Assembly (NCBI GenBank): GCA_016787345.1
Contig: JAEUUU010000136.1
Coordinates: forward strand, 1-35,572
Length of the DNA: 35,572 bases
Reading direction: 5' to 3'
From: Saprospiraceae bacterium
GTDB taxonomy: Bacteria; Bacteroidota; Bacteroidia; Chitinophagales; Saprospiraceae
How positions within the stretch are numbered: position 1 is the stretch's first letter; the number at the start of each line of letters is the position of its first letter. The notes under the pieces were generated by a model. That model was not told where the DNA came from. It saw only the letters and a program-made list of their open reading frames with translations, and did not search any database. Positions 1,418 through 33,660 of the stretch are shown here, piece after piece. Both the position numbers and the translations under genes were made by a program.

Positions 1418-1449
1418 CATCCATTTAAGCATCCAATTACATCCAATTA
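1418..1449. repeat. Three near-copies of a 10-base direct repeat
   Basis: CATCCATTTA at 1418-1427 is followed, after two bases, by CATCCAATTA at 1430-1439 and an identical copy at 1440-1449. The cluster lies in the 230-base gap between the broken lipoprotein gene and the CMD operon. It also marks roughly where composition switches from AT-rich to GC-rich. Confidence 0.7.
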
Positions 1450-1539
1450 AGGCCCCGTCACTTCTACTACGCCCCTCCCCCTCTTCCCAATTCTAATCGT
1501 AACTTCCCCCATTATTTTCCCACGCCAACCCACCCTGTC

Positions 1540-2112
1540 ATGGCATACATCAACGTTGAAGAGCACCTCCCGGGGGTCACAGGCCTGCTCGAATTCAGAA
1601 AAGACACCGCCGAACCCCTGCGCGAACTGACCCAGATCCTCCTGCGCGGCCCCTCCACCCTGACCGAGGCCGAGCGCGAACTCATCGCCACCATCGTCTC
1701 GCACCGCAACGAGTGCCGCTATTGCGTCACCTCGCACGCGGCGGCGGCCGACGCGTACTACGGCAACAGCGACACGACCGATAAAATCAGGGCGGATATC
1801 GAAAGCGCGCCGGTCAGCGAAAAAATGAAAGCGCTGCTGACCATCGCCGCACAGGTGCAGCAAAGCGGCAAAAACGTCAGCCCGGAGGCCATCGAACGCG
1901 CCAAAAACCTCGGCGCCACCGATCTCGAACTCCACGACACAGTGATGATCGCCGCTTTGTTTTGTTTTTACAACCGCTACGTCGACGGCCTGGGCACCTT
2001 TGCGCCCGCCGATTCGGATTACTACTCGGCCCTCGGCGAACGATTGAAAAACACGGGCTACCACCGCCCCGCACAGGGCTATGATTTTATGAAAAACCAA
2101 AAACTGACATGA
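1540..2112 (+). CDS. Carboxymuconolactone decarboxylase / AhpD-like protein (peroxidase-related), copy 1
   Basis: This is a 190-residue alpha-helical protein of the AhpD/CMD superfamily, of the kind annotated as uncharacterised peroxidase-related enzyme. The redox motif is visible as C59-R-Y-C62 followed by H66, in the context E-C-x-x-C-x-x-x-H. This is the CxxC/His centre that in AhpD carries out thiol-disulfide exchange and peroxide reduction. Conserved helices (LTEAERELIATIVSHRNEC, and LELHDTVMIAALFCFYNRYVDGLGT near the C-terminus) support the assignment. It is the first gene of a plus-strand operon. Its stop overlaps the MFS start as ATGA (2109-2112), indicating translational coupling. 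A second copy with the same residue spacing lies at 3341-3889. The cytosolic role is inferred, and the substrate is unknown. Confidence 0.9.
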   Translation: MAYINVEEHLPGVTGLLEFRKDTAEPLRELTQILLRGPSTLTEAERELIATIVSHRNECRYCVTSHAAAADAYYGNSDTTDKIRADIESAPVSEKMKALLTIAAQVQQSGKNVSPEAIERAKNLGATDLELHDTVMIAALFCFYNRYVDGLGTFAPADSDYYSALGERLKNTGYHRPAQGYDFMKNQKLT

Positions 2113-3329
2113 AACCGGCCAGAACGGAACCAGGGGCTTACCACTACCTGCTCTTTGCCGTCTGTTTTCTGGGCGGCGTGTTCGGCGGCGTGGCAAGCAC
2201 CCTGATGTCGGCTTATTTGCCGGATGTCCTGAAAGCGCTGCAAACGCCGGGCGAGCCGGCAAGCGACTCCGTCGGGGCGGTGATCAACGCCGCGTTCCCG
2301 TTCGGGATGATGTTCGGCGGCCTGCTGCTGGGCTTTTTCGGCGACCGTTTCGGGCGCAAACCGGCCTTGCAGGTGGCCCTGGGCTGTATCGGCATTTTTA
2401 TGATCCTGACCGGGTTTTCCGCCGGCTTCACCTCGGTGGGTATTTTCCGGTTTTTCACGGGCTTCGGCGTGGGCGGCATTTTGATGACGGGCGCGACTTA
2501 CCTGGCCGAGGAATGGCCCGAACAAACGCGCAACATCGCGCTCGGTATTTTGAGTATCACGATTCCGGTGGGCATTTTTTCGGCGGGTCTTATCACGTTC
2601 AATTTTTCCGATTGGCGCGCCGGTTTCCGGGTCGGACTGGCTCCTCTCCTGCTGGCCGGACTGGCGCATTTTCGCATCCGCGAATCGGGGGCCTGGCGGC
2701 AAAAACGAACGCGCGACGGCGCCCGGTCGCCCGCGGCTATGTCTGTTTTTCACCCCTCCGTTCGGCGCGACCTATGGCTGGGCAGCGCCATTTACGGTTC
2801 CATGCTGATCGGGCTGTGGGCCGTCTTTTTGTGGTTGCCGACCTGGGTGGAGGGCCTTGCAGACAGCACCGGCGGCCAAAAAGCGCGCGGCACGAGTATG
2901 ATGCTGTTTGCCATCGGCGGGCTCGCGGGCGGTTTCGTGTCGGGCTGGCTGAGCAATCTGTTCGGCGTAAAACGCACGACCCTGGTGTGCTTCGCTGCTG
3001 TTTTTATCCTGACTTTTTGCCTTTTCAAACTCAATTCTGCGCTCCATCCGCTGCTTTTCCTGGAAATCGGCCTGATCGCCCTCTTTTTCGGCCTGAGCCA
3101 GGGCGTGCTGAACGGCTATATCCCCGAACTGTTCCCGACCGAAGTACGCGCCTCGGCAACAGGCTTTTGCTTCAACATCGGGCGGATATTCACCGCTTCG
3201 GTGGTGTTTTTCGTCGGATGGCTGGAAACAGCCCTGGGCGGCATCGGCAACGCACTCTTTCTATTCTCGTTCGTGTTTTTGCTCGGTTTTCTGGCCACCC
3301 TTTTTGCGCGGGAACCCGAGATTCAATAA
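2109..3329 (+). CDS. Major facilitator superfamily transporter
   Basis: The product is 406 residues with about 12 predicted membrane helices, the usual MFS size. The loop 2-3 signature appears as G-F-F-G-D-R-F-G-R-K-P. The equivalent C-terminal-half region is G-W-L-S-N-L-F-G-V-K-R. A YIPELFPTEVRASATGF segment is typical of the aromatic-acid/H+ symporter and sugar-porter type groups. The central cytoplasmic loop (about residues 190-220) is short and Arg-rich. It sits between two AhpD/CMD-type genes, overlapping the first by four bases and ending 11 bases before the second. This suggests that it imports or exports a compound those enzymes act on. A proton-coupled organic acid is the likeliest substrate class, but this is inference. 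Confidence 0.9.
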   Translation: MKPARTEPGAYHYLLFAVCFLGGVFGGVASTLMSAYLPDVLKALQTPGEPASDSVGAVINAAFPFGMMFGGLLLGFFGDRFGRKPALQVALGCIGIFMILTGFSAGFTSVGIFRFFTGFGVGGILMTGATYLAEEWPEQTRNIALGILSITIPVGIFSAGLITFNFSDWRAGFRVGLAPLLLAGLAHFRIRESGAWRQKRTRDGARSPAAMSVFHPSVRRDLWLGSAIYGSMLIGLWAVFLWLPTWVEGLADSTGGQKARGTSMMLFAIGGLAGGFVSGWLSNLFGVKRTTLVCFAAVFILTFCLFKLNSALHPLLFLEIGLIALFFGLSQGVLNGYIPELFPTEVRASATGFCFNIGRIFTASVVFFVGWLETALGGIGNALFLFSFVFLLGFLATLFAREPEIQ

Positions 3330-3340
3330 ATCTTTGAACA

Positions 3341-3889
3341 ATGCCACACATTCATCTTCCCGAAAACCTCCCCGGCATCCGGGGGCTCATGGCTTTCCGG
3401 CCCGATACCGCACAACCGCTCAACGAACTGGCTGAAATCCTGCTGCGGGGCGAAAACACCCTCACGCGTGGCGAGCGGGAATTGATCGCGACCTACGTTT
3501 CGCACCTCAACGACTGCTTTTTTTGCCAAAATGCCCACGGCGGCATTGCGCAGCATTATCTGCAATGCGATCTGAGCTACCTCGACGCCCTCAAAGCGGA
3601 CCCGGAGGCCATGCCCATTTCCGACAAACTTAAAGCGCTGCTGGCTATCGCGGCCAGCGTACAGCGTGGCGGCAAATACGTCACACCGGCGCAGATCGAT
3701 CGCGCCCGAAACCTCGGCGCTACCGACCTCGAAATTCACGACACGGTCATGATCGCCGCCTTTTTTTGCTTTTGCAACCGCTACGTCGACGGCCTGGGTA
3801 CCGAGGCGCCGGCCAACCGGCAATTTTACATCGACCGGGGCCCGATGCGCGCAGAGGAGGGCTATGCGCATTTTGATTTGCGAAAATAA
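3341..3889 (+). CDS. Carboxymuconolactone decarboxylase / AhpD-like protein (peroxidase-related), copy 2
   Basis: This 182-residue paralogue of the 1540-2112 product has C59-F-F-C62 and H66 at exactly the same positions. It shares blocks such as LPGIRGL, ILLRGENTLTRGERELIATYVSHLNDC and the C-terminal LEIHDTVMIAAFFCFCNRYVDGLGT. The redox motif differs (CFFC versus CRYC), which would be expected to alter redox potential or partner choice. The ATG at 3341 follows the MFS stop by 11 bases, so the gene belongs to the same transcript. The two copies have diverged throughout and probably represent an old duplication. They may act as a hetero-oligomer or on related substrates; this is not testable from sequence alone. 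Confidence 0.9.
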   Translation: MPHIHLPENLPGIRGLMAFRPDTAQPLNELAEILLRGENTLTRGERELIATYVSHLNDCFFCQNAHGGIAQHYLQCDLSYLDALKADPEAMPISDKLKALLAIAASVQRGGKYVTPAQIDRARNLGATDLEIHDTVMIAAFFCFCNRYVDGLGTEAPANRQFYIDRGPMRAEEGYAHFDLRK

Positions 3890-3903
3890 TGCTATGCTGC
3901 CGG

Positions 3904-3929
3904 GGAGGCGCAGGCAGATGCGTGCCTCC
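3904..3929 (+). other. Intra-operon hairpin between CMD copy 2 and the DUF3179 gene
   Basis: GGAGGC at 3904-3909 pairs with GCCTCC at 3924-3929. Additional inner pairing (GCA with TGC) is possible across a small bulge. No T run follows, so this looks more like an RNA processing or partial attenuation structure than a terminator. It occupies most of the 60-base gap. Confidence 0.4.
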
Positions 3930-3949
3930 ACGGGTTAAATTCCAACGGA

Positions 3950-5095
3950 ATGAAAAATTTGTTCTACCTCGGTGTCCTCGTGTTGGTTTTGTTTGAAATC
4001 GCCAACGTCTATTTCATCATGCCGCTCCCCGGCAGCCAGGAGATGAACAGTATCGACGCGGCGTACTTTCTGTACAGCTGGCGCTGGTTGTTTCGCGGCG
4101 CGGGCGCAGTGTTGATCTTGCTCGGCCTCAACAGTGTTTTCTCCGCCGGGCGAAAATGGCTGCCTGCGCTCGCCTTGCTGCTCGCCGGACTGGTTGTTTA
4201 CGCCACCAACCTCGAAATGGCGGCCGACACGATGTTTTACCAACCTAAAACATTGCTTTTTCAAAAAATGCCCCAAAACAAGGTGGAAACCGATCGCCTG
4301 GTGATCGGCATCGAACACGCCGGCGAAGCCCGGGCCTACCCTGTTCAGTTCCTGGGTTACCATCACCAGGTGCGCGACAGCATCGGCGGGAAAGCGGTTT
4401 TGGTGAGTTATTGCACGGTTTGCCGCACGGGGCGGGTTTTCGAGCCGGTGGTAAACGGGCGTCCGGAGACCTTCCGGCTGGTGGGCATGGACCACTTCAA
4501 CGCCATGTTCGAAGACGCAACCACGCACAGTTGGTGGCGGCAAGCGACAGGCGAGGCAGCGGCGGGCCCGCTGAAAGGCACGGCTTTGCCCGAATTTCCG
4601 TCGGTACAAACGACCCTCGAAAAATGGGCCGAACTACACCCCGAAACACTGGTTATGCAACCCGACCCGGCTTTTCAGGCCGAGTACGACAGCCTTTCCA
4701 ATTACGAGTCCGGACAGCGAAAAAGCCAGCTGACCCGCCGCGACACAGCCTCCTGGCAGGACAAATCCTGGGTCATCGGCATCGAAACGGGCGGCCGGAA
4801 CAAAGCATTCGACTGGAATGATCTGCAACGGCAGCGCATCATACACGACGAAATCGGCGGACAACCGATCGTGCTCGTTTTGTCGCGGGACGACTGGAGT
4901 TTTATCGCTTTCCGGCGCAATGCCTCGCAGCAGGTGTTCACCCTGTCGGGCGATACCTTGTACGACGGCAGCCAGGCCTTCGATTTTTGGGGAAAATCGC
5001 TGCAACCCGGCGTTTCGGATCTGGAGCGCATCCGGGCTTACCAGGAGTATTGGCACAGCTGGCAGACGTTTCATCCGGGACAAGCCGGAGAATAA
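3950..5095 (+). CDS. DUF3179 family membrane-anchored protein
   Basis: This is 381 residues. The first 85 or so hold about three hydrophobic segments, including residues 2-24 and a pair around 45-85. The rest is a DUF3179 domain recognised by the run from AYPVQFLGYHHQVRDSIGG, through V-S-Y-C155-T-V-C158-R-T-G, to FNAMFEDATTHSWWRQATGEA and GPLKGT. The CxxC sits where DUF3179 proteins typically have a C-P-L-C-like motif, so it may bind metal or undergo redox exchange. The biochemical function of DUF3179 is not established to my knowledge. It lies 60 bases after the second AhpD-like gene on the same strand and is probably the last gene of that operon, which groups three CxxC proteins with one transporter. 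Confidence 0.85.
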   Translation: MKNLFYLGVLVLVLFEIANVYFIMPLPGSQEMNSIDAAYFLYSWRWLFRGAGAVLILLGLNSVFSAGRKWLPALALLLAGLVVYATNLEMAADTMFYQPKTLLFQKMPQNKVETDRLVIGIEHAGEARAYPVQFLGYHHQVRDSIGGKAVLVSYCTVCRTGRVFEPVVNGRPETFRLVGMDHFNAMFEDATTHSWWRQATGEAAAGPLKGTALPEFPSVQTTLEKWAELHPETLVMQPDPAFQAEYDSLSNYESGQRKSQLTRRDTASWQDKSWVIGIETGGRNKAFDWNDLQRQRIIHDEIGGQPIVLVLSRDDWSFIAFRRNASQQVFTLSGDTLYDGSQAFDFWGKSLQPGVSDLERIRAYQEYWHSWQTFHPGQAGE

Positions 5096-5148
5096 AAGCC
5101 GTCGGTGGGGGGCGGCCCCTCGACCCGCGCCCGGCTATGGCACAGAGA

Positions 5149-5805
5149 CTACCGGGCAACTTTCATCTCCCTGTATTCCCATACCGCCACCCCGCTCCCC
5201 TCGCTTTTCGCCGCCCGCAGCATCGCCCCGGCCACGTCGCGCGCGGCGATGGGCTTGTAGCGGGCCGGCAGCAGGAAAGAAAGGGGGCGCATCAGCCATT
5301 CGCCGATCCGCTCGCCCAGCCGGAATTCCGCCCTGTTGCCGAGCAGCAGCGAGGGGCGGAAAAAGACCACCAGCGGGAGGCCCATGCTCCGGATCTTGTC
5401 CTCCACCTCGCCTTTGAGACGGGTGTAAAAATTGCCGCTTTTGCTGTCGGCGCCCACGGCCGACACCAGCAAAAACCGGGAGCAGCCGGTTTCGAGGCAG
5501 TATTGGGCGGCGTGTACCGGGATGTCGTAGTCTACCTTGCGATAGGCCGCGGCATCGCCCTTTACCTTGCGCTGGGTAGTGCCTACGGAACAAAACACCG
5601 CATCGCAGCCGGCAATGGCCGAGCGGAAAGCATCGGCATCGGTAAAATCGAAAACGATGACCCGGATTTTCGGGTGTGAAATATCGACCGGCCGACGCGA
5701 CAGGATGCGAATGCTGCTGACGGCCGCGTCGGCTTCGAGCAATTCGACCAGTTGACCGCCGATGAGGCCGGTTGCGCCGAGCACGGCGACTGTATTGAGC
5801 GACAT
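5149..5805 (-). CDS. NAD(P)-binding Rossmann oxidoreductase (atypical SDR, TIP30/NmrA-like)
   Basis: From the ATG at 5803-5805 this gives 218 residues. The dinucleotide-binding motif VAVLGATGLIGGQLVELL lies right at the start (GATGxxG near residues 10-16). It is followed by the acidic end of beta-strand 3/4 and DAVFCSVGTTQRK, typical of HTATIP2-like and NmrA-like atypical SDRs. The F-L-L-V-S-A-V-G-A segment and a later Y-T-R-L-K-G-E fit the YxxxK catalytic region. A longer frame opens from a TTG at 5841, but its 12 extra residues precede the Rossmann strand and are unlikely. The gene converges on the DUF3179 gene with a 53-base gap. Substrate is unknown. Confidence 0.85.
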   Translation of the reverse strand: MSLNTVAVLGATGLIGGQLVELLEADAAVSSIRILSRRPVDISHPKIRVIVFDFTDADAFRSAIAGCDAVFCSVGTTQRKVKGDAAAYRKVDYDIPVHAAQYCLETGCSRFLLVSAVGADSKSGNFYTRLKGEVEDKIRSMGLPLVVFFRPSLLLGNRAEFRLGERIGEWLMRPLSFLLPARYKPIAARDVAGAMLRAAKSEGSGVAVWEYREMKVAR

Positions 5806-5843
5806 GTGGAATGGAATGATTGTGAACTTAATGCCCGACAAAG

Positions 5844-5876
5844 TTGCAATTTTCGCCGGGTTAGCGCGTCATTTTG
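5844..5876 (+). promoter_or_regulatory. Candidate Bacteroidota-type promoter for the 5934 lipoprotein operon
   Basis: TTG at 5844-5846, a 22-base spacer and TCATTTTG at 5869-5876 approximate the TTG / TAnnTTTG consensus, with one mismatch in the -7 element. It lies about 57 bases upstream of the start codon. Support is modest. Confidence 0.4.
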
Positions 5877-5933
5877 TACTTTTCCCGCTCAAAAATCCCG
5901 CCCGTACAACAGGCCTCTACCTTATTCTTTATC

Positions 5934-6362
5934 ATGTACAAACTTATCTTGTCTCTGTTCGCCTTCACGGCGCTGTTGATCGCTTGCAAAAACACCCCCA
6001 ATGCCCAATCGGCGGCAAAAGATGCGACGCCGGCTACCGGCACGGTCGTTTACTCCGGCAGAATCGCCGAAACCCTGTGGGGCGACACCCAGGTTCCGAT
6101 CACCGTCACCCTCGATCATTCCACCAGCACTTTTCTGCTGAACGTCGACTACGACAATACGAAAACCCAGGAGGGCGAACCGGTCAACGACATCAACGAC
6201 GCCGGCACTTTCACCAAATCCAACGATCCGAAATGGGGCAACCTGTACGAACTGAGCGGCGAAACCGTGGGCACGATGATCTTCCAGGTCGCCAGCAACA
6301 AACTGTTCGAACTGGACCACGAAAAAATGAACTACACCGGGCTTGAACTGGGACTGAAATAA
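5934..6362 (+). CDS. Small lipoprotein, possibly NlpE-like
   Basis: The ATG at 5934 gives 142 residues with a clear lipoprotein signal: a hydrophobic run then L-L-I-A-C, placing the lipidated Cys at residue 18. A frame opening at an upstream TTG (5874) would bury this signal internally and is rejected. After a low-complexity Asn/Ala/Ser linker comes a small beta-rich domain (VVYSGRIAETLWGDTQVPIT, then strand-turn-strand segments, ending LDHEKMNYTGLELGLK). The layout resembles the copper-resistance/stress lipoprotein NlpE N-terminal domain, including the 'L.G...' ending. However, the Cys residues of E. coli NlpE are not seen, so the assignment is weak. It is followed after 12 bases by the methyltransferase gene on the same strand. 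Confidence 0.75.
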   Translation: MYKLILSLFAFTALLIACKNTPNAQSAAKDATPATGTVVYSGRIAETLWGDTQVPITVTLDHSTSTFLLNVDYDNTKTQEGEPVNDINDAGTFTKSNDPKWGNLYELSGETVGTMIFQVASNKLFELDHEKMNYTGLELGLK

Positions 6363-6374
6363 GCGCCCCCCGCC

Positions 6375-7550
6375 ATGTCGCCCCAACTCGACGAGTTTAT
6401 CTGGCAACACCGCCTCGATGCGCCTGCCGCCATTGCCCTTTCCGCAAAAAAACACCCGGAAATACCGGTAGCCTACGCGGCCGGCCAGATCGAATGTCTG
6501 CAAAAAGCCCGGACCAAAATCCCGGCCTGGTACCGTGAGGGCATCCGTTTTTTTTCGGCCCTTTCGCTCGAACAGGCCTCGTCAGAAGCCACGGCGCGTT
6601 TCAAGGCCGGACTGGTAAAAGGCGAAAAAATGGCCGACCTGAGCGGCGGCATGGGCGTCGACAGTTTCTTTTTTGCGCAGCAATTCGGACAGGTCACGCA
6701 CGTAGAACCACAGGCGGAACTCAGCGCCGTCACCGCCCGCAATTTTGAACAACTGGGCGTCTTCAACGTCCGCTGCGCGGTGGCTACTGCGGAGGAATTT
6801 TTACAAAAAACCACCGAAAACTTCGACCTGCTCTACCTCGACCCCTCTCGGCGCAACGAACAAAAAAACCGCGTGCTGCGCCTGGAAGATTGCAGCCCCA
6901 ATATTTTGTCGATCAAAACTTTACTGCTCGAAAAAGCGCCGCTTGTGCTGCTCAAAACAGCGCCCCTGCTCGATATCCAGCTGGCCATGCGCCAACTGGA
7001 AACGGTCGCCCGGGTGTGGGTCGTGGCATCGGGCGCCGAGTGCCGGGAGGTGTTGTACTTGCTCCGGCGGGAGGCCGTGCCGGTCGACGAAGTGCCGGTC
7101 GAAGCCGTGCAGCTCGACAAATCGGGCGATGCCCAGGCGTTTACCTTTACTTTTCAGGAAGAAAAAACGGCCGTAGCGCCGCTGTCGCTGCCGCAACAAT
7201 ATTTGTACGAACCCCATGCTGCGATCCTGAAAGCGGGCGCTTTTCGCAGCTACGCGGCGCATTTTGGCTTAAAAAAATTGCACGCCAACACGCATTTATA
7301 CACCTCGGCACAACACGAGCCGGGCGTTCCGGGTCGGGCATTTCAGATCGAAAACCTGTGCAAATACGACCGCAAGGCAGTGCGGTCGGCCGTCCCCGGC
7401 GGGAAAGCCAATGTGGCCGTGCGCAATTTTCCGGACAGCGCCGATGCCGTGCGCAAAAAACTGGGCTTGTCCGACGGCGGTGATACCTATCTCTTTGCGT
7501 TCACGGATATGGAAGACAAAAAGATGATTGCCGTTTGCCGAAAAGTGTGA
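6375..7550 (+). CDS. THUMP-like domain SAM-dependent methyltransferase (PG1098-like)
   Basis: This is 391 residues. Motif I of a class I SAM-dependent methyltransferase is seen at about residues 88-98 (ADLSGGMGVDS). It is followed by the acidic strand-2 end (VTHVEPQ) and the motif IV-like LLYLDPSRR at about residue 155. The C-terminal third (from about residue 270: LYEPHAAILKAGAFRSYAAHFGLKKLHANTHLYTS) is the THUMP-like extension found in Bacteroidota proteins related to Porphyromonas gingivalis PG1098. These are presumed RNA methyltransferases; the target base is not known to me. The catalytic D-P-S-R tetrad is unlike the NPPY of N6-adenine enzymes. It probably shares a transcript with the upstream lipoprotein (12-base gap). 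Confidence 0.85.
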   Translation: MSPQLDEFIWQHRLDAPAAIALSAKKHPEIPVAYAAGQIECLQKARTKIPAWYREGIRFFSALSLEQASSEATARFKAGLVKGEKMADLSGGMGVDSFFFAQQFGQVTHVEPQAELSAVTARNFEQLGVFNVRCAVATAEEFLQKTTENFDLLYLDPSRRNEQKNRVLRLEDCSPNILSIKTLLLEKAPLVLLKTAPLLDIQLAMRQLETVARVWVVASGAECREVLYLLRREAVPVDEVPVEAVQLDKSGDAQAFTFTFQEEKTAVAPLSLPQQYLYEPHAAILKAGAFRSYAAHFGLKKLHANTHLYTSAQHEPGVPGRAFQIENLCKYDRKAVRSAVPGGKANVAVRNFPDSADAVRKKLGLSDGGDTYLFAFTDMEDKKMIAVCRKV

Positions 7551-7551
7551 A

Positions 7552-7995
7552 TCAGGCCATCCGGAACGTCACGCTCAGCGTGTGCCCTTCCGCGAATATG
7601 GTATACTGACCCGGCTGCATCACACGGCCTTCCAGTTGCAAATCCTGTGCGAGCGCCGAGGGCAATTCGCACGGCTGCGGCAAATGAAACTGCGCGTGGC
7701 GGAAATAATTCCGCAGCAGATGGCTGCACAGATCGTGGCGTTGAAAACGGACTTGCAGGGAATAAGGATCGGGAGCGGAAAGGCTGGCTTTTGCCCGGCG
7801 GCATTCGCGGTGACCGGCGGTGGCCCCGGGGAAATCGCCCTGCGCCTCGATACGGCAAATACCCGTACCGGCGCAATCTTCACGCGGCGAGCCAAAAACG
7901 ACGTCGGCGAGAATAAAGTCCGGGAGAATGGAATCGAATTGTTGCGGCCTTCCGGCCGGCATGGAGGAACCGGTTGTTGAGAAGTAGTGCATCAT
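7552..7995 (-). CDS. Small Cys-containing protein of unknown function
   Basis: From the double ATG at 7990-7995 this gives 147 residues. The same frame stays open far upstream, but that part is antisense to the hemerythrin-like gene and is not coding. Another possible ATG lies at 8050-8052. A conserved-looking core reads D-C-A-G-T-G-I-C-R-I, a Cys-x5-Cys arrangement, with further Cys in HRECRRAK, HDLCSH and PQPCELP. The C-terminus (LQLEGRVMQPGQYTIFAEGHTLSVTFRM) looks beta-stranded. Several Cys and His residues suggest metal binding, but no family is recognised. It converges tail-to-tail with the methyltransferase (1 base apart) and is divergent from the hemerythrin-like gene. Confidence 0.65.
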   Translation of the reverse strand: MMHYFSTTGSSMPAGRPQQFDSILPDFILADVVFGSPREDCAGTGICRIEAQGDFPGATAGHRECRRAKASLSAPDPYSLQVRFQRHDLCSHLLRNYFRHAQFHLPQPCELPSALAQDLQLEGRVMQPGQYTIFAEGHTLSVTFRMA

Positions 7996-8127
7996 GTGGT
8001 TAGTGATCTGATTAAAGAAGAAGAAGACGGGGATTAAATGCTTGTAAGGCATTCTTGCAAGAATTATTCCAATTTGAAAAAGCCGTGTAACCTTTGTTGG
8101 CTTGCGCCTGTCAGAAGCGAAAAAACA

Positions 8128-8817
8128 ATGGAACACATGACTGCTATACTCGCTACCACCCGCAAACGGATGTTCGACATTCCCCATAAAGGCTTGCGCA
8201 ACATCCTGTCCCAACTTTCCCTGATGGCCGGCAACACCGACTACCGCAATGCGTTTGCCATCGGCAAATTGCACCAGACCGGTCAGGAACTTTTCGTCCT
8301 GCTCGACGAACACGCCGCGGGCGAAAACGCCGTGCTGCTCGCCGACCTCGAACAACGCTGCCCGGGCGCCGGCCAGCACAACCTCGACGACCACGAAGAA
8401 ATTGAACACCGCCAGGCCGCACTTGCCCTTGCGCTCGACACCCTGCTAGCCGGCTCGAAAACCGGCGCCGATATGAGCGCCGAAGGACACCAGTTTTTCC
8501 AGTTGCTGAGCCAGTTTCACGCCGCCTACATCCAGCACATGCTGGAAGAAGAGAACGATACCCAGGCGCAACTTTGGGCGCATTTTACCGATGAAGAACT
8601 GGATGGCATGACGGGCCGCATTATTTCAAAAATCCAGCCCGACGTGATGTTGCTATGGGTGAAATGGTCGGCGCCCGCGCTGCCCCATGCCGAACGCACC
8701 GCCTGGGTCCGCGCCATGAAAGCCGGGGCGCCCGCGCCATTCTTCGCGCAGGTGATGGCTGCGCTGGAAGGAGCTTTACCGCCGCTCGATCTTGAAATGT
8801 TGATGGGAGAATTGTAA
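8128..8817 (+). CDS. Hemerythrin-like (HHE cation-binding) protein
   Basis: The ATG at 8128 gives 229 residues; the frame opening at 8038 adds an unlikely Cys-rich leader. The protein is almost entirely helical. Spaced His/Glu ligands fit a hemerythrin four-helix bundle: I-P-H-K-G-L-R, then Q-E-L-F-V-L-L-D-E-H, then D-D-H-E-E-I-E-H-R, and finally Q-F-H-A-A-Y-I-Q-H-M-L-E-E-E. Family members bind a diiron centre and handle O2, NO or peroxide in the cytosol. The C-terminal 70 residues (from about DEELDGMTGRIISKIQP) are also helical and look like an added regulatory domain. It is divergent from the small Cys-containing gene with a 132-base gap. Confidence 0.8.
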   Translation: MEHMTAILATTRKRMFDIPHKGLRNILSQLSLMAGNTDYRNAFAIGKLHQTGQELFVLLDEHAAGENAVLLADLEQRCPGAGQHNLDDHEEIEHRQAALALALDTLLAGSKTGADMSAEGHQFFQLLSQFHAAYIQHMLEEENDTQAQLWAHFTDEELDGMTGRIISKIQPDVMLLWVKWSAPALPHAERTAWVRAMKAGAPAPFFAQVMAALEGALPPLDLEMLMGEL

Positions 8818-8829
8818 GCCGCTATTACA

Positions 8830-8907
8830 CTTCGGCGTTCGATATTCGGTGTTCGATATTCGACATTCAAAGTTGTTAGTTAAAACATCGAATATCGAAC
8901 GCCGAAG
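8830..8907. terminator. Heptamer-based inverted repeat between convergent genes (probable bidirectional terminator)
   Basis: A perfect 19-base inverted repeat (8830-8848 with 8889-8907) encloses a 40-base spacer. From 8831 the sequence is periodic at seven bases: TTCGGCG, TTCGATA, TTCGGTG, TTCGATA, TTCGACA, TTCAAAG, TTGTTAG, TTAAAAC. The right arm repeats three of these units on the other strand. The right arm abuts the TGA (8908-8910) of the minus-strand lipoprotein gene, and the left arm lies 12 bases after the hemerythrin-like stop. Position favours transcription termination for both genes; there is no classical T run. Confidence 0.7.
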
Positions 8908-9570
8908 TCAAAACTTTGAAAAACGGCGAATCGTCGGGTAAGCCCGGGCCGTATCGGTCGCCTTGCGTTCGAGTTCCTGAAACCCGCCGGCCCCGATTTT
9001 GTACACAAAACTGGAATCCTCGCAGGTGATCGAATCCAGGTCGTCTTCCTCTTCGGGCGAACAGAGGGTTTCAAATTGATAAACTTTCCAGCCTTCGGGG
9101 CCTCGGCAGAGTAAAGTTCCGAGACTGTGCGAATCGCCCGCGTCGCCCCATTCGATGGCGGCTTCGAGGCTTTTCACCGTTTTGCCAATTTGCCGGTCGA
9201 ATAAAAAAATCCGGATGGCATTGTCCCAATACTCGTAAGGTTCGCGAAAAATCAAGCCTTCGGTACGCTCGTCGATGCGGAACCGGTAACAGGCATGCAG
9301 GTTGCTGTCGTCGCCACCGACGAAGCGCATTACGTCGGGATCATCGATAAAGGCATACCAGGCCGAATCCAGTTTTTGCCCCCAATAACCGGCCAGTTCT
9401 ACTGCTTCTCTGACGTTACCCGTTTCGATCCAGATCGTGTCGGTCGTCAACTCGGTAAACAGGGAAAGAAACTGGTCGGCAGGCGCTGGCACAGGCTGCT
9501 GCGGCGCGGTTTGTTTCGACTGGCAGGCGCCGAGCAGGCAAAACAGTAGTATGCTAACAGGCCATTTCAT
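8908..9570 (-). CDS. Lipoprotein of unknown function
   Basis: From the ATG at 9568-9570 this is 220 residues with a strong lipoprotein signal (KWPVSILLFCLLGAC), lipidated Cys about residue 17. A TTG two codons upstream is a less likely start. A Gln/Pro/Ala linker precedes a globular domain with many Asp/Glu and aromatic residues (ETGNVREAVELAGYWGQKLDSAWYAFIDDPDV, YEYWDNAIRIFLFD) and four Cys. No family is recognised. It starts six bases after the stop of the E1 gene on the same strand, so it is likely co-transcribed, though no functional link is evident. Confidence 0.8.
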   Translation of the reverse strand: MKWPVSILLFCLLGACQSKQTAPQQPVPAPADQFLSLFTELTTDTIWIETGNVREAVELAGYWGQKLDSAWYAFIDDPDVMRFVGGDDSNLHACYRFRIDERTEGLIFREPYEYWDNAIRIFLFDRQIGKTVKSLEAAIEWGDAGDSHSLGTLLCRGPEGWKVYQFETLCSPEEEDDLDSITCEDSSFVYKIGAGGFQELERKATDTARAYPTIRRFSKF

Positions 9571-9576
9571 GATCAA

Positions 9577-11964
9577 TTATTGAATTCTGCCCGGTTCCGC
9601 TTCGCGAATCAGGTTGAGCACGGCCTCCACCAGGTCTTCCGTTTGCGGTTTGGAGTGGTAATCGCCGTCCTGGCCGTAAGCCGTGCGGTGGTCTTTGGCA
9701 AACAGAGTGACCGGTTTGGAATCCAGCCAGCGATAGCCGCCCTGATGTTCGAGCACCTGTTGCATCATGTAGCCGGTTGCGCCGCCCTGGAAATCTTCAT
9801 CGAAGAAGACCACCCGGTTGGTTTTTTTCAAGCTTTCCACGCACAGTTGGGGAAGGTCAAAGGGCAACAGGGTCTGTACGTCGATCAATTCGACCGACAC
9901 GCCCAGGGTCGCCAGCAAGTCGCCCGCTTCTTCGGCCACCCGTACACTGGAGCCGTAAGTAATCACGGTGACGTCGGCGCCGCTGCGCAGGATTTCGGGC
10001 ACCCCGAGCGGTACGGTAAATTCGCCGACATTATCGGGCAGGCGTTCTTTCAGGCGGTAGCCGTTGAGGCATTCCACCACGATGGCAGGGTCGTCGGAGC
10101 GCAGCAGGGTGTTGTACATGCCGGCGGCCTGGGTCATGTTGCGGGGCACGCAGAAGTGCATACCGCGCAGGGAGCCGAGCATCAGGCCCATGGGCGAGCC
10201 GGCGTGCCAAACGCCCACGAGGCGGTGGCCACGGGTGCGAATGATGGCCGGGGCCGCCTGCAGGTTATTCGAACGCCAGCGGAGCGTGCAGAGGTCGTCG
10301 GAAAGGGGCGACAAGCCGTAAAGCAGGTAATCTAGGTACTGAATTTCCGCCACCGGGCGCAGGCCGCGCATGGCCATGCCGATCGCCTGACCCATGATCG
10401 TCCACTCGCGGATACCGGTGTCGAACACGCGGGCTTCGCCGTGTTTTTGCTGCATACCGCGCAAGCCCTGGTTGACGTCGCCGATGTAGCCGACGTCTTC
10501 ACCGAAAAAGAACAGTTCGGGGTGGTTTTCCAGATTTTTATCGAAGCAAGCGTTGAGCACCTCGTAGCCGTCTTTCATGGGAGCCTCCTCCGAAAAAACG
10601 GCCGGAACAACCGGGACGTTCAGCGGAGATTTCGGCGACTGGCTGAGCAGATGCTGGCTGTAAATGCGGTCGCCCTCCTGCATTTCAGCGGCGGCAAATT
10701 GTTCGAGGGCCGTTTTGGCAGGGCCTGTTGCAAAAAGTGCGGCACGACGGGCAAGTTGTACCAGTTCGAAGCGAAGGGGTTCGCGTTTGGCGGCGAAATC
10801 CTGCATCAACTGGTCGAGGCGGGCTGGGTCACTGGCCGTCTGCCGGGCGGCGGCGAGCAGGGTATCGAGCTGTGTGCGCAGGGCGGCAACCTTGTCGTGA
10901 TAGGCGCGGTAGGCGCGGGTAGCCGCGTCGTTGGCTTCTTTTTTGGCCGCGGCTTTGATGGCTTCAATTTCTTCGGCAGTGGCCAGGCCGGCGTCGATCA
11001 TCCATTCGGCCATGCGGCGGTTGCAGTCGAACTGCTCCTCAAAGGCCAGACGCTCGGGGCTTTTGTAACGCCGGTGGTCGCCCGAGGTGGAGTGCCCGAG
11101 TTGCTGGGTCACCTCCTGAATATGAAACAAGGCGGGCTGGTGCGTGTCGCGCATTTGAGCGATGCCGTTGCGGTAAAGTTGTACCAGTCCGGGGTAGTCC
11201 CAGGCTTTACCGATGTGCATGGCCAGTCCGTTTTTACCCTCAAAACCCGACAGGACTTCCGAGATACTTTCTTTGGTGGTCTGGTATTTTTTGGGCACCG
11301 AGATGCCGTAGCCATCGTCCCAGACGCTCACGGCCAGGGGGGCCTGAAGTACGCCCGCGGCATTGATGGTTTCCCAGAAAGCGCCTTCGGAGGTAGAGGC
11401 ATCGCCGATGGTGACGAAGGCGACTTCGCTGCCCTGGTCGGACAGATTGCCGCAGATCGCCGGGTTTTCGCGGAATTTTTTGGAGGCGAATGCCAGTCCC
11501 AGTCCGCGGGCCATCTGGCCGGCGGTGGGGGCGATATCGGAAGAGATGTTGAAGCGGTTTTTGAGGTCGAGGAAATTGCCCTGTTCATCCACGAAGGCCG
11601 TGGCGAAATGGCAGTTCATCTGACGGCCGCCGGAGAAGGGGTCGTTGTAGGGATCGCCGTAGAGCTGAGCGAAAAACTCGTCGAGGTTCATGAGGCCGAG
11701 GGCCAGCATAAGCGTTTGGTCGCGGTAGTACCCCGAGCGGAAATCACCTTTTTGCCAGGCTTTGGCCATGGCGACCTGGGCCACCTCCTTGCCATCGCCG
11801 ATAATTCCGAAGTTGGCGCGGCCATTGAGCACTTCTTTTCGGGCAATCACGCTGGCTTCACGGCTCAGGCAGCAAATGCGGAAATCCTGCAATACTTCTT
11901 CCCGGTTGAAGCCCGGGGCGCCATTGGTTTTCGGGGTGCGGCTTGTCGTTTTTGTATCGACCAT
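9577..11964 (-). CDS. Fused alpha/beta 2-oxoacid dehydrogenase E1 (branched-chain type)
   Basis: At 795 residues this combines the alpha subunit (about 1-440) and beta subunit (about 465-795) of a thiamine-diphosphate E1 in one chain. The alpha half shows the substrate-channel segment S-G-G-R-Q-M-N-C-H and the ThDP-binding stretch V-T-I-G-D-A-S-T-S-E-G, ending D-D-G-Y-G-I-S. The beta half starts at KDGYEVLNACFDKNLENHPELFFFGEDVGYIGDVNQG and carries QYLDYLLYGLSPLSDDL and a C-terminal transketolase-type domain (VTVITYGSSV). Such fused E1s are common in Bacteroidota and are usually annotated as 2-oxoisovalerate dehydrogenase. They decarboxylate branched-chain 2-oxoacids and pass the acyl group to lipoyl-E2. 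No E2 or E3 gene is adjacent. The start is the ATG at 11962-11964. Confidence 0.9.
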   Translation of the reverse strand: MVDTKTTSRTPKTNGAPGFNREEVLQDFRICCLSREASVIARKEVLNGRANFGIIGDGKEVAQVAMAKAWQKGDFRSGYYRDQTLMLALGLMNLDEFFAQLYGDPYNDPFSGGRQMNCHFATAFVDEQGNFLDLKNRFNISSDIAPTAGQMARGLGLAFASKKFRENPAICGNLSDQGSEVAFVTIGDASTSEGAFWETINAAGVLQAPLAVSVWDDGYGISVPKKYQTTKESISEVLSGFEGKNGLAMHIGKAWDYPGLVQLYRNGIAQMRDTHQPALFHIQEVTQQLGHSTSGDHRRYKSPERLAFEEQFDCNRRMAEWMIDAGLATAEEIEAIKAAAKKEANDAATRAYRAYHDKVAALRTQLDTLLAAARQTASDPARLDQLMQDFAAKREPLRFELVQLARRAALFATGPAKTALEQFAAAEMQEGDRIYSQHLLSQSPKSPLNVPVVPAVFSEEAPMKDGYEVLNACFDKNLENHPELFFFGEDVGYIGDVNQGLRGMQQKHGEARVFDTGIREWTIMGQAIGMAMRGLRPVAEIQYLDYLLYGLSPLSDDLCTLRWRSNNLQAAPAIIRTRGHRLVGVWHAGSPMGLMLGSLRGMHFCVPRNMTQAAGMYNTLLRSDDPAIVVECLNGYRLKERLPDNVGEFTVPLGVPEILRSGADVTVITYGSSVRVAEEAGDLLATLGVSVELIDVQTLLPFDLPQLCVESLKKTNRVVFFDEDFQGGATGYMMQQVLEHQGGYRWLDSKPVTLFAKDHRTAYGQDGDYHSKPQTEDLVEAVLNLIREAEPGRIQ

Positions 11965-12046
11965 TTTGTGGAATGTGGTTAGGGCAATTATACCGACTCA
12001 AACAAATTTTTCTTCGGCCGTTGGGTTGTTTCCAAAAAATTTCGGA

Positions 12047-12074
12047 CAAAGGTAGGGATAATTTTGCCGCCCAA
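12047..12074 (-). promoter_or_regulatory. Promoter for the fused E1 gene
   Basis: On the minus strand TTG (12072-12074), 17 bases, then TACCTTTG (12047-12054) matches the Bacteroidota TTG / TAnnTTTG consensus exactly. It implies a 5' leader of about 75 bases before the ATG at 11964. Confidence 0.7.
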
Positions 12075-12186
12075 CCGAAACTTCCTTCGGTTTTCAAGAC
12101 ATGAGCGGAACACATTTTTTCCAATTTCCGGGTGGTGGCGGGGCAACCTTTTCGCTATTTTCCCGTTTGATGGGCCACTTTATTTT

Positions 12187-12276
12187 TTTGCTTAAAGCAG
12201 GCGCAAGGCAAATGATGATTTTTATGAATCGGGCATTCAGGCAAAATGAATTTTGCTAAAAATTAATTTAAGCAAA
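12187..12276. other. Nested palindromes in the 414-base gap between E1 and the DksA-like gene
   Basis: The stretch 11965-12378 has no gene. It holds opposed promoters at 12047-12074 and 12300-12328 and, between them, this structured part. TTTGCTTAAA (12187-12196) is perfectly complementary to TTTAAGCAAA (12267-12276). Inside lies GCAAAAT-GA-ATTTTGC (12241-12256), a 16-base palindrome. This could be an operator or a small RNA structure. A 16-base direct repeat (TAATTTTGCCGCCCAA at 12059 and again at 12321) also links the two promoter regions. Confidence 0.4.
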
Positions 12277-12299
12277 CATCAAATTTTTCACCGTGTGCC

Positions 12300-12328
12300 T
12301 TGTGCCAAAGTTTTTTGGTCTAATTTTG
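12300..12328 (+). promoter_or_regulatory. Promoter for the DksA-like gene
   Basis: TTG at 12300-12302, an 18-base spacer and TAATTTTG at 12321-12328 match the Bacteroidota promoter consensus. The start codon is 50 bases further on. Confidence 0.7.
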
Positions 12329-12378
12329 CCGCCCAAAACCGAACCACTACCTTCTTCACTTAAACAGTAACCTCGATT

Positions 12379-12960
12379 ATGGTTAACGAACCGAAAGTAC
12401 GGTACAGCGATGAGGAACTGCAGGAATTCAAAACTTTGATCGACGAAAAGATCGCCAAAGCCCAGGAAGAATTGGATTTCACGAATCAGCAGATCGCCGA
12501 ACTCAACGAAAACGGCTTTAATCAGCAAGGGGGCGATTGGTACGACGATTCTACCGCCCACACCGATCTGGAATTGCTACAGCGTATGGCCGCTCGCCAG
12601 CAACGTCACGTGCAAGACCTGAAAAACGCCTTGTTGCGCATCCAAAACAAAACCTACGGCATTTGTATCGTTACCGGTCAACTGATCGATAAACAACGCC
12701 TCCGCCTGGTGCCGCACGCGACCAAAAGCATCGACGGCAAAAACATCGCCAATGCCGGCAAGGAGGTTCCGCTCGAAGGCGGCGACGGCGAAGCTTTCCC
12801 CGGTACCGACGAGCGCCCGGCCAAACCCATCGGCGACAAAGTGCGCATTGCCAGCGGCAAACGCCCCCCGCGCAACGGCGGCGACGATTGGGAACCCGAC
12901 AATGAATCGATGGAAGACGCCGGCTACACCCGCAAATTTGAAGAGGGAGACGAAGAGTAA
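12379..12960 (+). CDS. TraR/DksA-family protein lacking most zinc-finger cysteines
   Basis: This is 193 residues. The N-terminal half is a long helical hairpin (YSDEELQEFKTLIDEKIAKA through to QQRHVQDLKNALLRIQ), as in DksA. The following globular part reads Y-G-I-C96-I-V-T99-G-Q-L-I-D-K-Q-R-L-R-L-V-P-H-A-T. Compared with classical DksA, where four Cys bind zinc, only C96 is retained; the others are Thr, Ser and Gly. The same loss is seen in other Bacteroidota members I recall. A polar tail of about 70 residues, rich in Gly, Asp and Glu, is extra. DksA proteins bind the RNA polymerase secondary channel and modulate transcription with ppGpp. The gene has its own promoter and a strong terminator. 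Confidence 0.85.
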   Translation: MVNEPKVRYSDEELQEFKTLIDEKIAKAQEELDFTNQQIAELNENGFNQQGGDWYDDSTAHTDLELLQRMAARQQRHVQDLKNALLRIQNKTYGICIVTGQLIDKQRLRLVPHATKSIDGKNIANAGKEVPLEGGDGEAFPGTDERPAKPIGDKVRIASGKRPPRNGGDDWEPDNESMEDAGYTRKFEEGDEE

Positions 12961-12978
12961 AAACGGCTCCCGGAATAA

Positions 12979-13018
12979 AAAAACGGCCCATCGTCAGTTG
13001 CGATGGGCCGTTTTTTAT
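12979..13018. terminator. Strong rho-independent terminator, bidirectional
   Basis: AAACGGCCCATCG (12981-12993) pairs perfectly with CGATGGGCCGTTT (13001-13013) around a seven-base loop. A T run follows on the plus strand, and an A run precedes it, so the mirror image works on the minus strand. It separates the convergent DksA-like and DUF4252 genes. Confidence 0.95.
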
Positions 13019-13032
13019 TTACTGCTTGCGGC

Positions 13033-13572
13033 TCAGGATTTGGAGACGGGTATCTTGAACAGCGGTTCTTCCGCACCTTTTTGATCCTTGCCCGGCTTTT
13101 TATCCGCGCCGTATTCGTCGAGCACCTTTTTAAGGTCGTCGTACCGCAGACGGCCGCGCACGCTCACCAGGGCAAATCCGTCGGGCGAATCGACAAACAC
13201 GACCACCTTGCGGATTCCCTTGCCGTTGCGGCGTTCCTTGGCCATCACCCTGACATGCGTCTTGCCATCGCGCACGGTGAGCAGTTCCTCCAGTCCGCGG
13301 CGTTTGGCTTTGCGGGCAAAGCGCCGGGTGTCGCGCGGGGTAATCGGGCTGCCGTCTTCAAAAAACAACACCCGTACCTTGCCCACCTTCTGGGCCAGTT
13401 TGCGCTCTTCCCGATCTTCGATAAACCAGGTGCCGATGTGTATCGCCCAGGCCGGCACGGTGGCGGCAATGGCCCCGTCGTAATCTTTGTATTTCCAGTA
13501 AAGGCCGTAGTCCTGCGCCCGCAAGGTCTGGGCCGCCAGGAACATGATCAGGCTGAGAAAGATGTATTTCAT
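13033..13572 (-). CDS. DUF4252 family exported protein, copy 2
   Basis: From the ATG at 13570-13572 this gives 179 residues with a signal peptide ending L-R-A-Q. The remainder matches DUF4252 in layout. A segment ending L-L-T-V-R-D-G-K-T-H-V-R-V precedes a beta-strand F-V-D-S-P-D-G-F-A-L-V-S-V-R-G, and the tail is basic (GADKKPGKDQKG). It is the last gene of the sigma/anti-sigma-like cluster and 125 bases after the first DUF4252 gene. DUF4252 proteins of Bacteroidota are frequently encoded behind ECF sigma factors, but their function is unknown. The gene converges on the DksA-like gene across a terminator. Confidence 0.85.
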   Translation of the reverse strand: MKYIFLSLIMFLAAQTLRAQDYGLYWKYKDYDGAIAATVPAWAIHIGTWFIEDREERKLAQKVGKVRVLFFEDGSPITPRDTRRFARKAKRRGLEELLTVRDGKTHVRVMAKERRNGKGIRKVVVFVDSPDGFALVSVRGRLRYDDLKKVLDEYGADKKPGKDQKGAEEPLFKIPVSKS

Positions 13573-31924: not shown

Positions 31925-33502
31925 ATGGCATACGAATTCAAACTACCCTCCCTCGGCGAAGGCGTTACCGGAAAAGTACTCGAAGTGCTCGTCAAACCCG
32001 GCGACCAGGTCAAAAAGGATCAAAATATTCTCATCGTCGGCACCGACAAAGTGGACGCCGAAATTCCGGCCGATGCCGATGGCGTGGTGGAAGAAGTCCT
32101 CGTAAAAAAAGGCGACGACGTAACCGAAGGCGCCGTCATCCTGCGCCTGCAAAGCGCCGGCAGCGCTGCCACACCGGCCCCTGCCAAGGCCGCCGACCCG
32201 GCGCCGGTTGCCGCTTCGGCGCCCGCTGCACCGGCTGCCGCCACCGCGGTTTACGAATTCAAACTGCCCTCGCTCGGCGAAGGCGTCACCGGAAAAGTGC
32301 TCGACGTACTCGTCAAACCCGGCGATTCCGTTGCCAAAGACCAGAATGTACTGATCGTCGGCACCGACAAGGTCGACGCTGAAATCCCTGCCGATGCCGC
32401 CGGCACGGTCGTGGAGGTTTTGGTCAAAAAAGGCGACGACGTGACCGAGGGCTCCGTCGTCCTGCGCCTGCAAACCAGCGGCGCCGCACCGGTTGCAGCT
32501 GCGCCCGCGCCTGCTCCGGTAGCCAGCGCACCCGCAGCGCCGGCCGCACCCGCCCCTGCCGCACCGGTAGCCGCACCGGCTAGCGCATCCGCCGCTTCGT
32601 CGTTCCGCATATCGCCGCTCGCCCGCAAACGCGCCAAGGAACTCGGTGTCAACCTCTCCGACGTACGGCCCGCCGAGGGCGCCAGCCGCATCTCGTACAA
32701 AGACGTGGTAGACTACGTCAAACACAAAATTGATACGGGCGGCGGACAATCCGGCGCCGTGGCGGGCGCCATGCCGCACAAAAAACTGCCCGATTTCGCC
32801 AAATTCGGCGAGATCGAACGCCAGCCCCAGAGCCGCATCGGCGTGATCACGGCGGAGAACATGCACTACGCTTTCAACACGATTCCGCATGCCTGGATCT
32901 CTGAAAAAGCCGACATCACCCAACTCGAAAAACTGCGTCAGCAATACAAAGAGCAGGTCAAAGCCGCCGGCGGTAACCTGACCACTACAGCCATCATCAC
33001 CAAGGCCGTGAGCGGGCTGTTAAAAAAAATGCCGCAGTTCAATGCGAGCTACGACGCTGAAAAGCAAGAGGTTATTTTTAAAAAATACGTCAATGTCGGC
33101 ATCGCTGTCGACACCCCGCGCGGCCTGCTCGTGCCGGTGATCCGCAACACCGATCAGAAAGGGCTGCAACAGATCGCCGTCGACCTGACGGAGATCAGTA
33201 CCCGCACCCGCGACGGCAAAAACAAACCCGACGACCTCGACGGCGGCACTTTCACTATTTCCAATATCGGCGGCATCGGCGGCACCAACATGTTGTCGAT
33301 CGTCAACTGGCCGCAGGTGGCCATCCTGAGCATCACAGCCGCCACGACCGAAGCCGTCTGGAACGGCACGGCCTTCGAACCCCGCCTCCTGATGCCCATG
33401 ACCATCGGCTGGGACCACCGCGTGATCAACGGCGCCGACGCCGCGCGTTTCCTGGTGGAATTGAAGCGGATTCTGGAAGAACCGTTTTTGGGGTGGATGT
33501 GA
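31925..33502 (+). CDS. aceF: Pyruvate dehydrogenase E2 (dihydrolipoyl acetyltransferase)
   Basis: This encodes 525 residues. Lipoyl domain 1 (about 2-77) has the lipoylated lysine K42 in G-T-D-K-V-D-A; lipoyl domain 2 (about 110-185) has K149 in the same motif. Ala/Pro-rich linkers follow each. The E3/E1-binding domain is at about 227-262 (RISPLARKRAKELGVNLSDV). The catalytic domain begins near 285 (KLPDFAKFGEIER) and ends with D-H498-R-V-I-N502-G-A-D. Asn at the position that is often Asp also occurs in Azotobacter E2p. The catalytic core aligns by eye with AceF rather than with branched-chain E2, pairing it with aceE. The two lipoyl domains are nearly identical at DNA level, 327 bases apart. 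Confidence 0.93.
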   Translation: MAYEFKLPSLGEGVTGKVLEVLVKPGDQVKKDQNILIVGTDKVDAEIPADADGVVEEVLVKKGDDVTEGAVILRLQSAGSAATPAPAKAADPAPVAASAPAAPAAATAVYEFKLPSLGEGVTGKVLDVLVKPGDSVAKDQNVLIVGTDKVDAEIPADAAGTVVEVLVKKGDDVTEGSVVLRLQTSGAAPVAAAPAPAPVASAPAAPAAPAPAAPVAAPASASAASSFRISPLARKRAKELGVNLSDVRPAEGASRISYKDVVDYVKHKIDTGGGQSGAVAGAMPHKKLPDFAKFGEIERQPQSRIGVITAENMHYAFNTIPHAWISEKADITQLEKLRQQYKEQVKAAGGNLTTTAIITKAVSGLLKKMPQFNASYDAEKQEVIFKKYVNVGIAVDTPRGLLVPVIRNTDQKGLQQIAVDLTEISTRTRDGKNKPDDLDGGTFTISNIGGIGGTNMLSIVNWPQVAILSITAATTEAVWNGTAFEPRLLMPMTIGWDHRVINGADAARFLVELKRILEEPFLGWM

Positions 33503-33504
33503 GA

Positions 33505-33660
33505 TTAGGGTTGATGGGGTTTATAAGGTTTATAAGGTTGATAAAAAAGGGTAGTTTCTGCCCTCTGTTTTATTGAGCTCTTGTGAAAAGACCAATAAAC
33601 TGAGGGCAGAAACAACCCTTTTTTATCAACCTCATAAACCCCATCAACCCTCATCAACCT
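33505..33660. terminator. Long inverted repeat of 9-base units between convergent aceF and esterase genes
   Basis: Left arm 33505-33564 and right arm 33602-33660 are inverted copies. The inner 32 bases (GGTTGAT, A6, GGGT, then GTTTCTGCCCTC) match with one difference. The outer parts are units of the form NNGGTT(G/T)AT. The left arm carries one extra unit-length segment (about 9-10 bases) relative to the right. The middle 37 bases can also partly pair. Position between convergent genes suggests a bidirectional terminator; the TAG stop of the esterase overlaps its end (33659-33661). Confidence 0.8.

Follow-up and report, generated by a model that had tools for sequence, protein, structure and literature searches.

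The short tandemly repeated repetitive (STRR) sequences of cyanobacteria are heptamers: their units of 7 nt lie between genes, a single genome holds several unit sequences, and their occurrence is patchy between species. Our study reports on STRR-like repeats in an uncultured Saprospiraceae bacterium (genome G000; 5.28 Mb, 191 contigs), which were noticed in a window of 35,572 nt (contig JAEUUU010000136.1, C78 in our numbering). A first-pass annotation of this window had listed seven arrays of short units, credited them with a common design and likened them to the STRR heptamers; all seven arrays were detected close to where it had placed them, and both the design and the likeness hold. The kind of repeat is known, as STRR-like repeats; what is new is its composite form, in which a typical full copy consists of a G-rich array, a stem, a loop, the complementary stem and a C-rich complementary array. 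We propose, as the probable reading, that these arrays form, throughout the genome, a single class of composite repeats at gene boundaries, which is shaped by slippage, by template switching between arms and by copying between loci without a dedicated transposase.

Long simple sequence repeats have units of 5-11 nt (PMC4679880; this and the other works cited were available in excerpt). The repeats described here resemble these and the STRR sequences in their unit of 7 nt (here 7-10), their intergenic position, the several units per genome and their patchiness; they differ in that they often surround a common hairpin stem, have arms of fixed polarity and show loop inversion. In our genome, units of 5-11 nt exceed shuffled controls mainly between genes, and copy number shifts by whole units relative to the sister species. 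The GGGNATC heptamers of Xanthomonas and Nostoc described by Rehm et al. lie near an open reading frame (ORF) on their 5' side, on the sense strand past stop codons and antisense ahead of start codons; they are under-represented between divergent ORFs, and quadruplex formation has been proposed for them (PMC4692102). Going by the excerpts of that work, the positional rule is identical for our arrays, but G-runs are absent from several of our words, AATGTGCT among them, and our arrays often form inverted pairs with stems. TAACTGA repeats are found in Beggiatoaceae, cyanobacteria and some Bacteroidetes, and are alike in being patchy across distant groups, in forming arrays just 5' of start codons and in showing mostly 7-nt-step indels between two close Cyanothece strains; they differ in consisting of a single heptamer, with one inverted repeat in 170 sets according to the excerpted text (PMC4679880). 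Our word strings had no match in the literature searched, and nothing closer than the works cited was found among the top-ranked topical matches.

The enrichment of arrays was assessed with Tandem Repeats Finder (score 40) against dinucleotide shuffles, on home-made gene calls and not a curated annotation. The unselected sample comprised 39 stretches of at most 20 kb, each taken from the start of one of contigs C1-C40, with C16 (L046, all N) dropped. The 313 intergenic segments of this sample (62,288 nt) contain 77 arrays, spread over 54 segments, against 1-6 in ten shuffles, in agreement with the predicted excess of these periods over background in intergenic DNA; the periods are mostly 7, 8, 9 and 10 nt and multiples of these. 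Coding sequence (482,883 nt) holds 38 arrays, against 16-18 in three shuffles, with a period divisible by 3 in 31 of them. The full sample from the same genome (1,755,621 nt, partly picked for word or stem matches) contains 242 arrays in 156 of 997 intergenic segments, at a median distance of 16 nt from the nearer gene edge, compared with 45 nt for random placement. Arrays were also present in 75 of 321 segments of a likewise partly picked sample from the sister metagenome-assembled genome, Saprospiraceae bacterium SJ871 (G025). The array class is confirmed as real, genome-wide and larger than first noted.

The arrays draw on a limited number of vocabularies that return at many loci, a few of them at dozens. 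Recurring word families are GGTTTTG, GGATTTGA/GGATGCGA, GGTTTATAA/GGTTGATGA, GGTGAATT, AATGTGCT and TTCGATTGA, along with CGATTTA, AATGATG, AGTGATG, CGCAGAGA, CGCAAAGG and others. Four GG-initial families (GGTTTTG, GGATTTGA, GGTTTATAA and GGTGAATT) enclose one 21-bp hairpin stem, AAAAGGG(N)7TGCTCTC, and often continue directly into it. Searching for half-stems with the pattern GAGNGCAGNAANNNCCNYTTT gave 119 matches in G000 and a single one in a reversed control. In a strict test the stem was met by 57 of 63 array ends for GGTTTTG, 8 of 22 for GGATTTGA, 3 of 55 for GGTTTATAA and 1 of 1 for GGTGAATT; the counts for the last three are in part due to the word pattern, which takes in or truncates the opening letters of the stem. 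Stem halves are intergenic in 101 of 103 cases, and within a segment the right half never precedes the left, one left-right-left-right segment excepted. The nine variable bases of the stem agree at 7.7 positions within a locus and at 6.3 between loci (24 loci; 0 of 10,000 permutations), and the loops at 24 loci span 22-212 nt. Two-armed segments carry one family on both sides 65 times. A loop motif of the GGTTTTG elements lies inside such elements in 14 of 14 occurrences in the G000 sample and in 8 of 11 in that of SJ871. Half elements, made of a word array and a stem half (57 nt), also stand in tandem four to five times, at L169 (C61), approximately 890-1230, and at C127:4325-4516. A scan of six sources against Rfam gave one tRNA and no other match.

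Comparison with SJ871 shows these elements in the course of change. Among 130 orthologous gap pairs, with a median gene identity of 95.7%, 24 have arrays in both species, five in a single species (two in G000, three in SJ871) and 101 in neither. A length change of at least 6 nt is seen at 23 of 29 array gaps but at 5 of 99 others. Array indels of at least 5 nt are exact word multiples in 23 of 45 cases, where approximately 5.9 are expected (after exclusion of three swap or absence loci). At two loci the loop is reverse-complemented between the species: L184:5310, with a reverse score of 157 against a forward score of 20, and the first element of L150:7657, with 54 against 12. When 43 stem-bounded loops of the two samples were pooled, the L150 loops had no relatives other than one another (54 and 49; next 19) and have therefore been inverted in place; the L184 loop likewise matches its ortholog best (123), but scores of 108-111 are reached by loops at other loci. 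Whole vocabularies are also exchanged. At L043:1218, GGTTTTG arms in G000 stand opposite GGTGAATT arms in SJ871, with different loops, and the second element of L150 has GGTTTTG arms and a loop like that of the neighbouring element (score 64) in G000 but GGATTTGA arms in SJ871; at both loci apparent older words can be read outside the new arms in G000. L184 comprises several nested modules in G000 and one in SJ871, and L034:15715 has an element in SJ871 only; at this sole clean presence/absence locus no sharp ends or target duplications were seen. Three array gaps of L170 are unchanged or almost so, and those at 2571 and 6575 are 100% identical between the species amid local gene identities of 96-100%, possibly through recent transfer or strong conservation.

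The polarity of the elements was read per intergenic segment from the way in which G-rich (F) and C-rich (R) arrays follow one another. FR was found 56 times, FRFR twice, RF and RFR once each, F alone 48 times and R alone 47 times, with one segment unassigned; a lone F lies closer to the left gene in 38 of 48 cases and a lone R closer to the right gene in 38 of 47. G-rich words at 3' ends favour the sense strand by 125:26, compared with 145:123 in array-free gaps, and convergent gaps, which have no leader, contain FR 15 times, RFR once, RF never, F 13 times and R 12 times. Segments with a stem lie between two plus-strand genes (16), two minus-strand genes (12) or convergent genes (14), and once between divergent genes, although 28% of intergenic DNA is divergent (p = 1e-5). 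Arrays of any family occur in 18 of 224 divergent gaps and 41 of 134 convergent gaps. The placement of stem copies mostly at 3' ends, with near absence between divergent genes, fits avoidance of promoter damage or a role as two-way terminators equally.

The distribution of words and stems among genomes is uneven. In 100 genomes, G000 included, the stem pattern occurs 119 times in G000, 92 times in SJ871 and once in each of three others; a stricter pattern was found in the GTDB contig collection, where records of G000 itself are possibly absent, on SJ871 contigs only. Across 42 genomes of the genus, pairs of AATGTGCT number 63 in G000, 109 in SJ871, 33 in G037, 2 in G009 and 1 each in G033 and G007, and GAGGAT words 281 in G000, 102 in SJ871, 41 in G016 and 1 in G006. 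A 26-nt AATGTGCT string is present in two of 296 genomes sampled from the phylum, G000 and G263, which belongs to another family. Two of the three G037 loci read have AATGTGCT arms that meet an inner sequence missing from the G000 and SJ871 samples. One stem thus lies within four vocabularies in G000, and the inner sequences that one vocabulary surrounds differ between G000 and G037; these patchy counts and differing inner sequences show that words, stems and genomes do not travel together. A phage or virus as vehicle was rejected, as a scan of viral contigs with two patterns, that of the stem and one AATGTGCT word string, gave no exact match. In G263:C2 (L231; same class, another family) a AATGTGCT array stands beside an apparent gene end, and at L230 (G037:C119:2600-3400) an ORF of 135 codons (97-504) lies between inverted AATGTGCT arms and looks by eye like a four-helix bundle.

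Our comparison suggests a model in which three processes act on the same elements. Word arrays lengthen and shorten one word at a time via replication slippage, as the between-species indels show. The polymerase may switch template between inverted arms and so invert the loop, the outcome seen at two loci, and the same switching might transfer changes between the arms. Entire elements, or inner portions of them, would be copied between loci and displace older ones from inside, an outcome again visible at two loci; template switching at short homologies, or gene conversion from one element to another, aided by common stems and words, is the route we prefer to a dedicated transposase. Template switching between inverted repeats is described in yeast, with arm homogenisation and spacer inversion as its signatures (PMC8604942). 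Spacer inversion is shared by two loci here, with the caveat of copy replacement at L184, while the cases in the excerpted works concern yeast genes and RNA hairpins without tandem words (PMC8604942, PMC8794818). The first-pass annotation had suggested slippage followed by inverted copying. Slippage stands, but a separate origin for each locus does not, given the recurring vocabularies, the stem shared by four of them and the replacements; for inverted copying the two flipped loops, the polarity of the arms and the pairing of the stems speak in favour. Slippage and template switching account for local change and not for the spread of words and stems between loci, and something besides local generation disperses the arrays.

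Several observations weigh against our model. The word families differ between the arms in 15 of 80 two-armed segments; the AATGTGCT family is mostly without the common stem (4 of 22 array ends), and its arms at 17892 and 18080 of the window are leaders of two divergent genes round a conserved middle, not an inserted hairpin. The common loop motif of the GGTTTTG elements makes them look like the product of movement of a unit. Loop orientation is kept at 20 of 26 loci (some of the 20 without an array), flipped at two and ambiguous at four; recombination between arms could likewise flip loops, and a copy inserted in opposite orientation is a possible cause of the change at L184. Homogenisation of arms after the split is favoured at 12 loci and opposed at 6, with 2 ties, which falls short of significance (sign test p = 0.24, Wilcoxon p = 0.067), and inverted copying of arms may thus not be general. 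C-rich words precede start codons in a ratio of 79:9, but this proves nothing, because array-free leaders match in composition (457:83), and we rejected it as evidence of polarity. Short-homology copying alone may not suffice for the spread to dozens of loci. A further proposal, which we regard as rather doubtful, is that vocabularies are interchangeable: words and hairpin stems would be separate modules mixed between loci and lineages, new hairpins being grafted into the middle of old ones by hairpin-templated copying or an unknown enzyme acting on inverted word arrays, with older words left as outer layers.

The placement of the stems has a possible, though not probable, explanation in selection, which would maintain the elements as two-way transcription terminators or stabilisers of mRNA 3' ends. 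On both strands an A-run precedes and a T-run follows the stem, predicted folds are strong, and the position at 3' ends with depletion between divergent genes is as expected; promoter avoidance, however, accounts for the position equally well, turnover is fast, and the stem is missing from other congeners searched. The loops of 22-212 nt, compared with 3-8 nt in the terminator scan, weaken the case for a plain intrinsic terminator. We consider it somewhat less likely still that the elements are non-autonomous mobile elements, of the miniature inverted-repeat transposable element (MITE) or repetitive extragenic palindrome (REP) type, with the stem as terminal inverted repeat, a transposase elsewhere and arrays that are decayed or slipped ends. 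The stem and GGTTTTG loop motif common to many loci, the presence/absence and replacement at orthologous sites and the patchy occurrence in the genus would all follow from mobility; one stem surrounded by four vocabularies, AATGTGCT words whose inner sequences differ between G000 and G037, and the lack of target duplications or sharp ends at the one clean locus would not. That similarity between loci is due to chance or low complexity, with independent slippage at each, explains the whole-unit indels but is very improbable in view of the 21-nt stem pattern, found 119 times and once in the control, and a 22-nt GAGGAT word pattern (281 against 0). Although some contigs start or end within arrays (e.g. 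C3, C7, C10 and C71), an artefact of metagenome assembly or binning is barely credible, since the second assembly, SJ871, has the same families at orthologous gaps.

Three protein families were compared with the repeats as candidate enzymes. The resemblance to REPs and bacterial interspersed mosaic elements (BIMEs) lies in more than 100 extragenic palindromes in mosaic arrangement; those elements are typically tagged by GTAG or CGTC at one end, and the excerpts make no mention of tandem word arms (PMC2817692, PMC3733652). Our stem consensus, by reading and not by systematic count, has no such end tag, though GTAG is present inside the stem in single copies such as the window copy at 33545. RAYT genes number four in G000, two in SJ871 and 0 to 9 among 42 genomes, and do not track the repeats; at the two of four RAYT loci that were read, the palindromes are unlike our words, in contrast to a REP/BIME system, in which the RAYT gene has the same palindromes on its flanks, and a RAYT/REP system was rejected. 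These two loci, L091 (C137, approximately 2000-2550) and L092 (C72, approximately 1270-1460), have palindromic repeats of their own alongside, and a AATGTGCT array lies about 1 kb from the one on C72. Reverse transcriptase was discarded as well, with three genes in G000, two in SJ871, one in G037 and none in G016, and presence in 26 of 42 genomes, many of them repeat-free. Loss of SbcD as the reason for hairpin survival fails as a discriminator because G000 and most congeners are alike in having only a divergent SbcD-like protein (38 of 42 genomes with a match, 5 above the cut-off). A co-occurring enzyme, which the first-pass annotation had suggested looking for, was not found among RAYT, reverse transcriptase and SbcD, none of which tracks the repeats; other transposases and recombinases, including a site-specific one that could turn the two flipped loops as an invertible switch, were not sought. 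Apart from the word arrays, a tandem and palindromic family, GTAGCGCCGACC, has GTAG at its start and is possibly a true REP (L178:15858-16073; L041; L069), and the palindromic tandem repeats AACCCTTACAGGGTT and CATGGGCTG, at L057:9432-9497 and L034:11976, may be separate families.

Within the window, no array is situated deep in a called gene, as originally described, and six of the seven lie within approximately 25 nt of a gene edge. The weakest of them, three copies of the C-rich (on the sense strand) 10-mer CATCCAATTA(AG) at 1418-1451 (plus strand), stops 88 nt upstream of a CMD-family gene at 1540. SJ871 DNA aligns to positions 1535-20000 in three large syntenic blocks of 89-96% identity, and the comparison of window loci covered the five from 8830 to 18080. 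Four loci have inverted arms, as had been reported, and strong hairpins are predicted at the three that were folded (8830, 13595 and 33505). At 8830-8868 (plus; array detected at 8831-8868) the left arm CTTCGGCGTTCGATATTCG, a 7/14-mer, faces a right arm at 8889-8907 (minus) that is the reverse complement of 8830-8848 across 19 nt; the gap measures 90 nt in G000 and 84 nt in SJ871. The arms GGTTGATAAGGGTTTATCAGGTTTATA (13595-13635, plus) and CCTGATAAACCCTCATAAACC (13649-13691, minus), detected as a 9-10-mer array at 13607-13691, have between them a short AAAAGGG stem remnant (by reading), and the SJ871 ortholog is of equal length with 87% identity at ungapped positions. At the fourth locus the 9-mer arm GGTTGATGGGGTTTATAAGGTTTATAAGGTTGAT (33509-33542, plus; array at 33518-33544) leads into the left half of the shared stem, AAAAGGGTAGTTTCTGCCCTC (33545-33565, plus; pattern match on the minus strand), and the right half, GAGGGCAGAAACAACCCTTTT (33602-33622, minus; match on plus), leads into the arm TTATCAACCTCATAAACCCCATCAACCCTCATCAACC (33623-33659, minus; array at 33625-33659). 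The loci at 13595 and 33505 have a common unit, GGTTTATAA/GGTTGATAA, and the latter encloses the genome-wide stem, a correction to the statement that the unit sequences mostly differ.

The third inverted locus has a left arm of AATGTGCT words, an 8-mer in a 16/24-mer higher order (17892-17953, plus), and a right arm of AGCACATT words (18080-18144, minus; detected at 18076-18144). Each arm lies 5 nt from a start codon, the left arm from that of the minus-strand acyltransferase gene (16807-17886) and the right arm from that of the gene for pyruvate dehydrogenase E1 (18150-20822); in SJ871 the two arms are longer, around a conserved middle. A single arm of 12.3 GGTTTTG copies (14919-15004, plus) runs, by reading, into a variant of the left half of the stem, AAAAGGAGGGTGGATGCTCTC (15005-15025, plus), which falls outside the search pattern and has no right half; in its ortholog no array was called, and the copies there are few and degenerate. 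The 3.6 copies of AGTGATG at 16774-16798 (plus) extend across the stop codon of gene 15765-16778, where SJ871 has a 15-nt gap and no array. The flanking genes are ordinary (a CMD protein, a hemerythrin-domain protein, two DUF4252 proteins, an acyltransferase, pyruvate dehydrogenase E1, an E2 acyltransferase and an esterase), and two of ten have no family.

To our knowledge, the origin and spread of STRR-like repeats are unsettled. The two sister species, approximately 4% apart in gene DNA, present likely intermediates at the same gaps, namely arrays that slipped by whole words, inverted loops, nested duplications, replaced vocabularies, and elements present in one species and absent from the other, and the generating process is thus testable by resequencing of strains. 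The arms, stems and words have different histories, and a repeat family defined by its words is therefore not an element.

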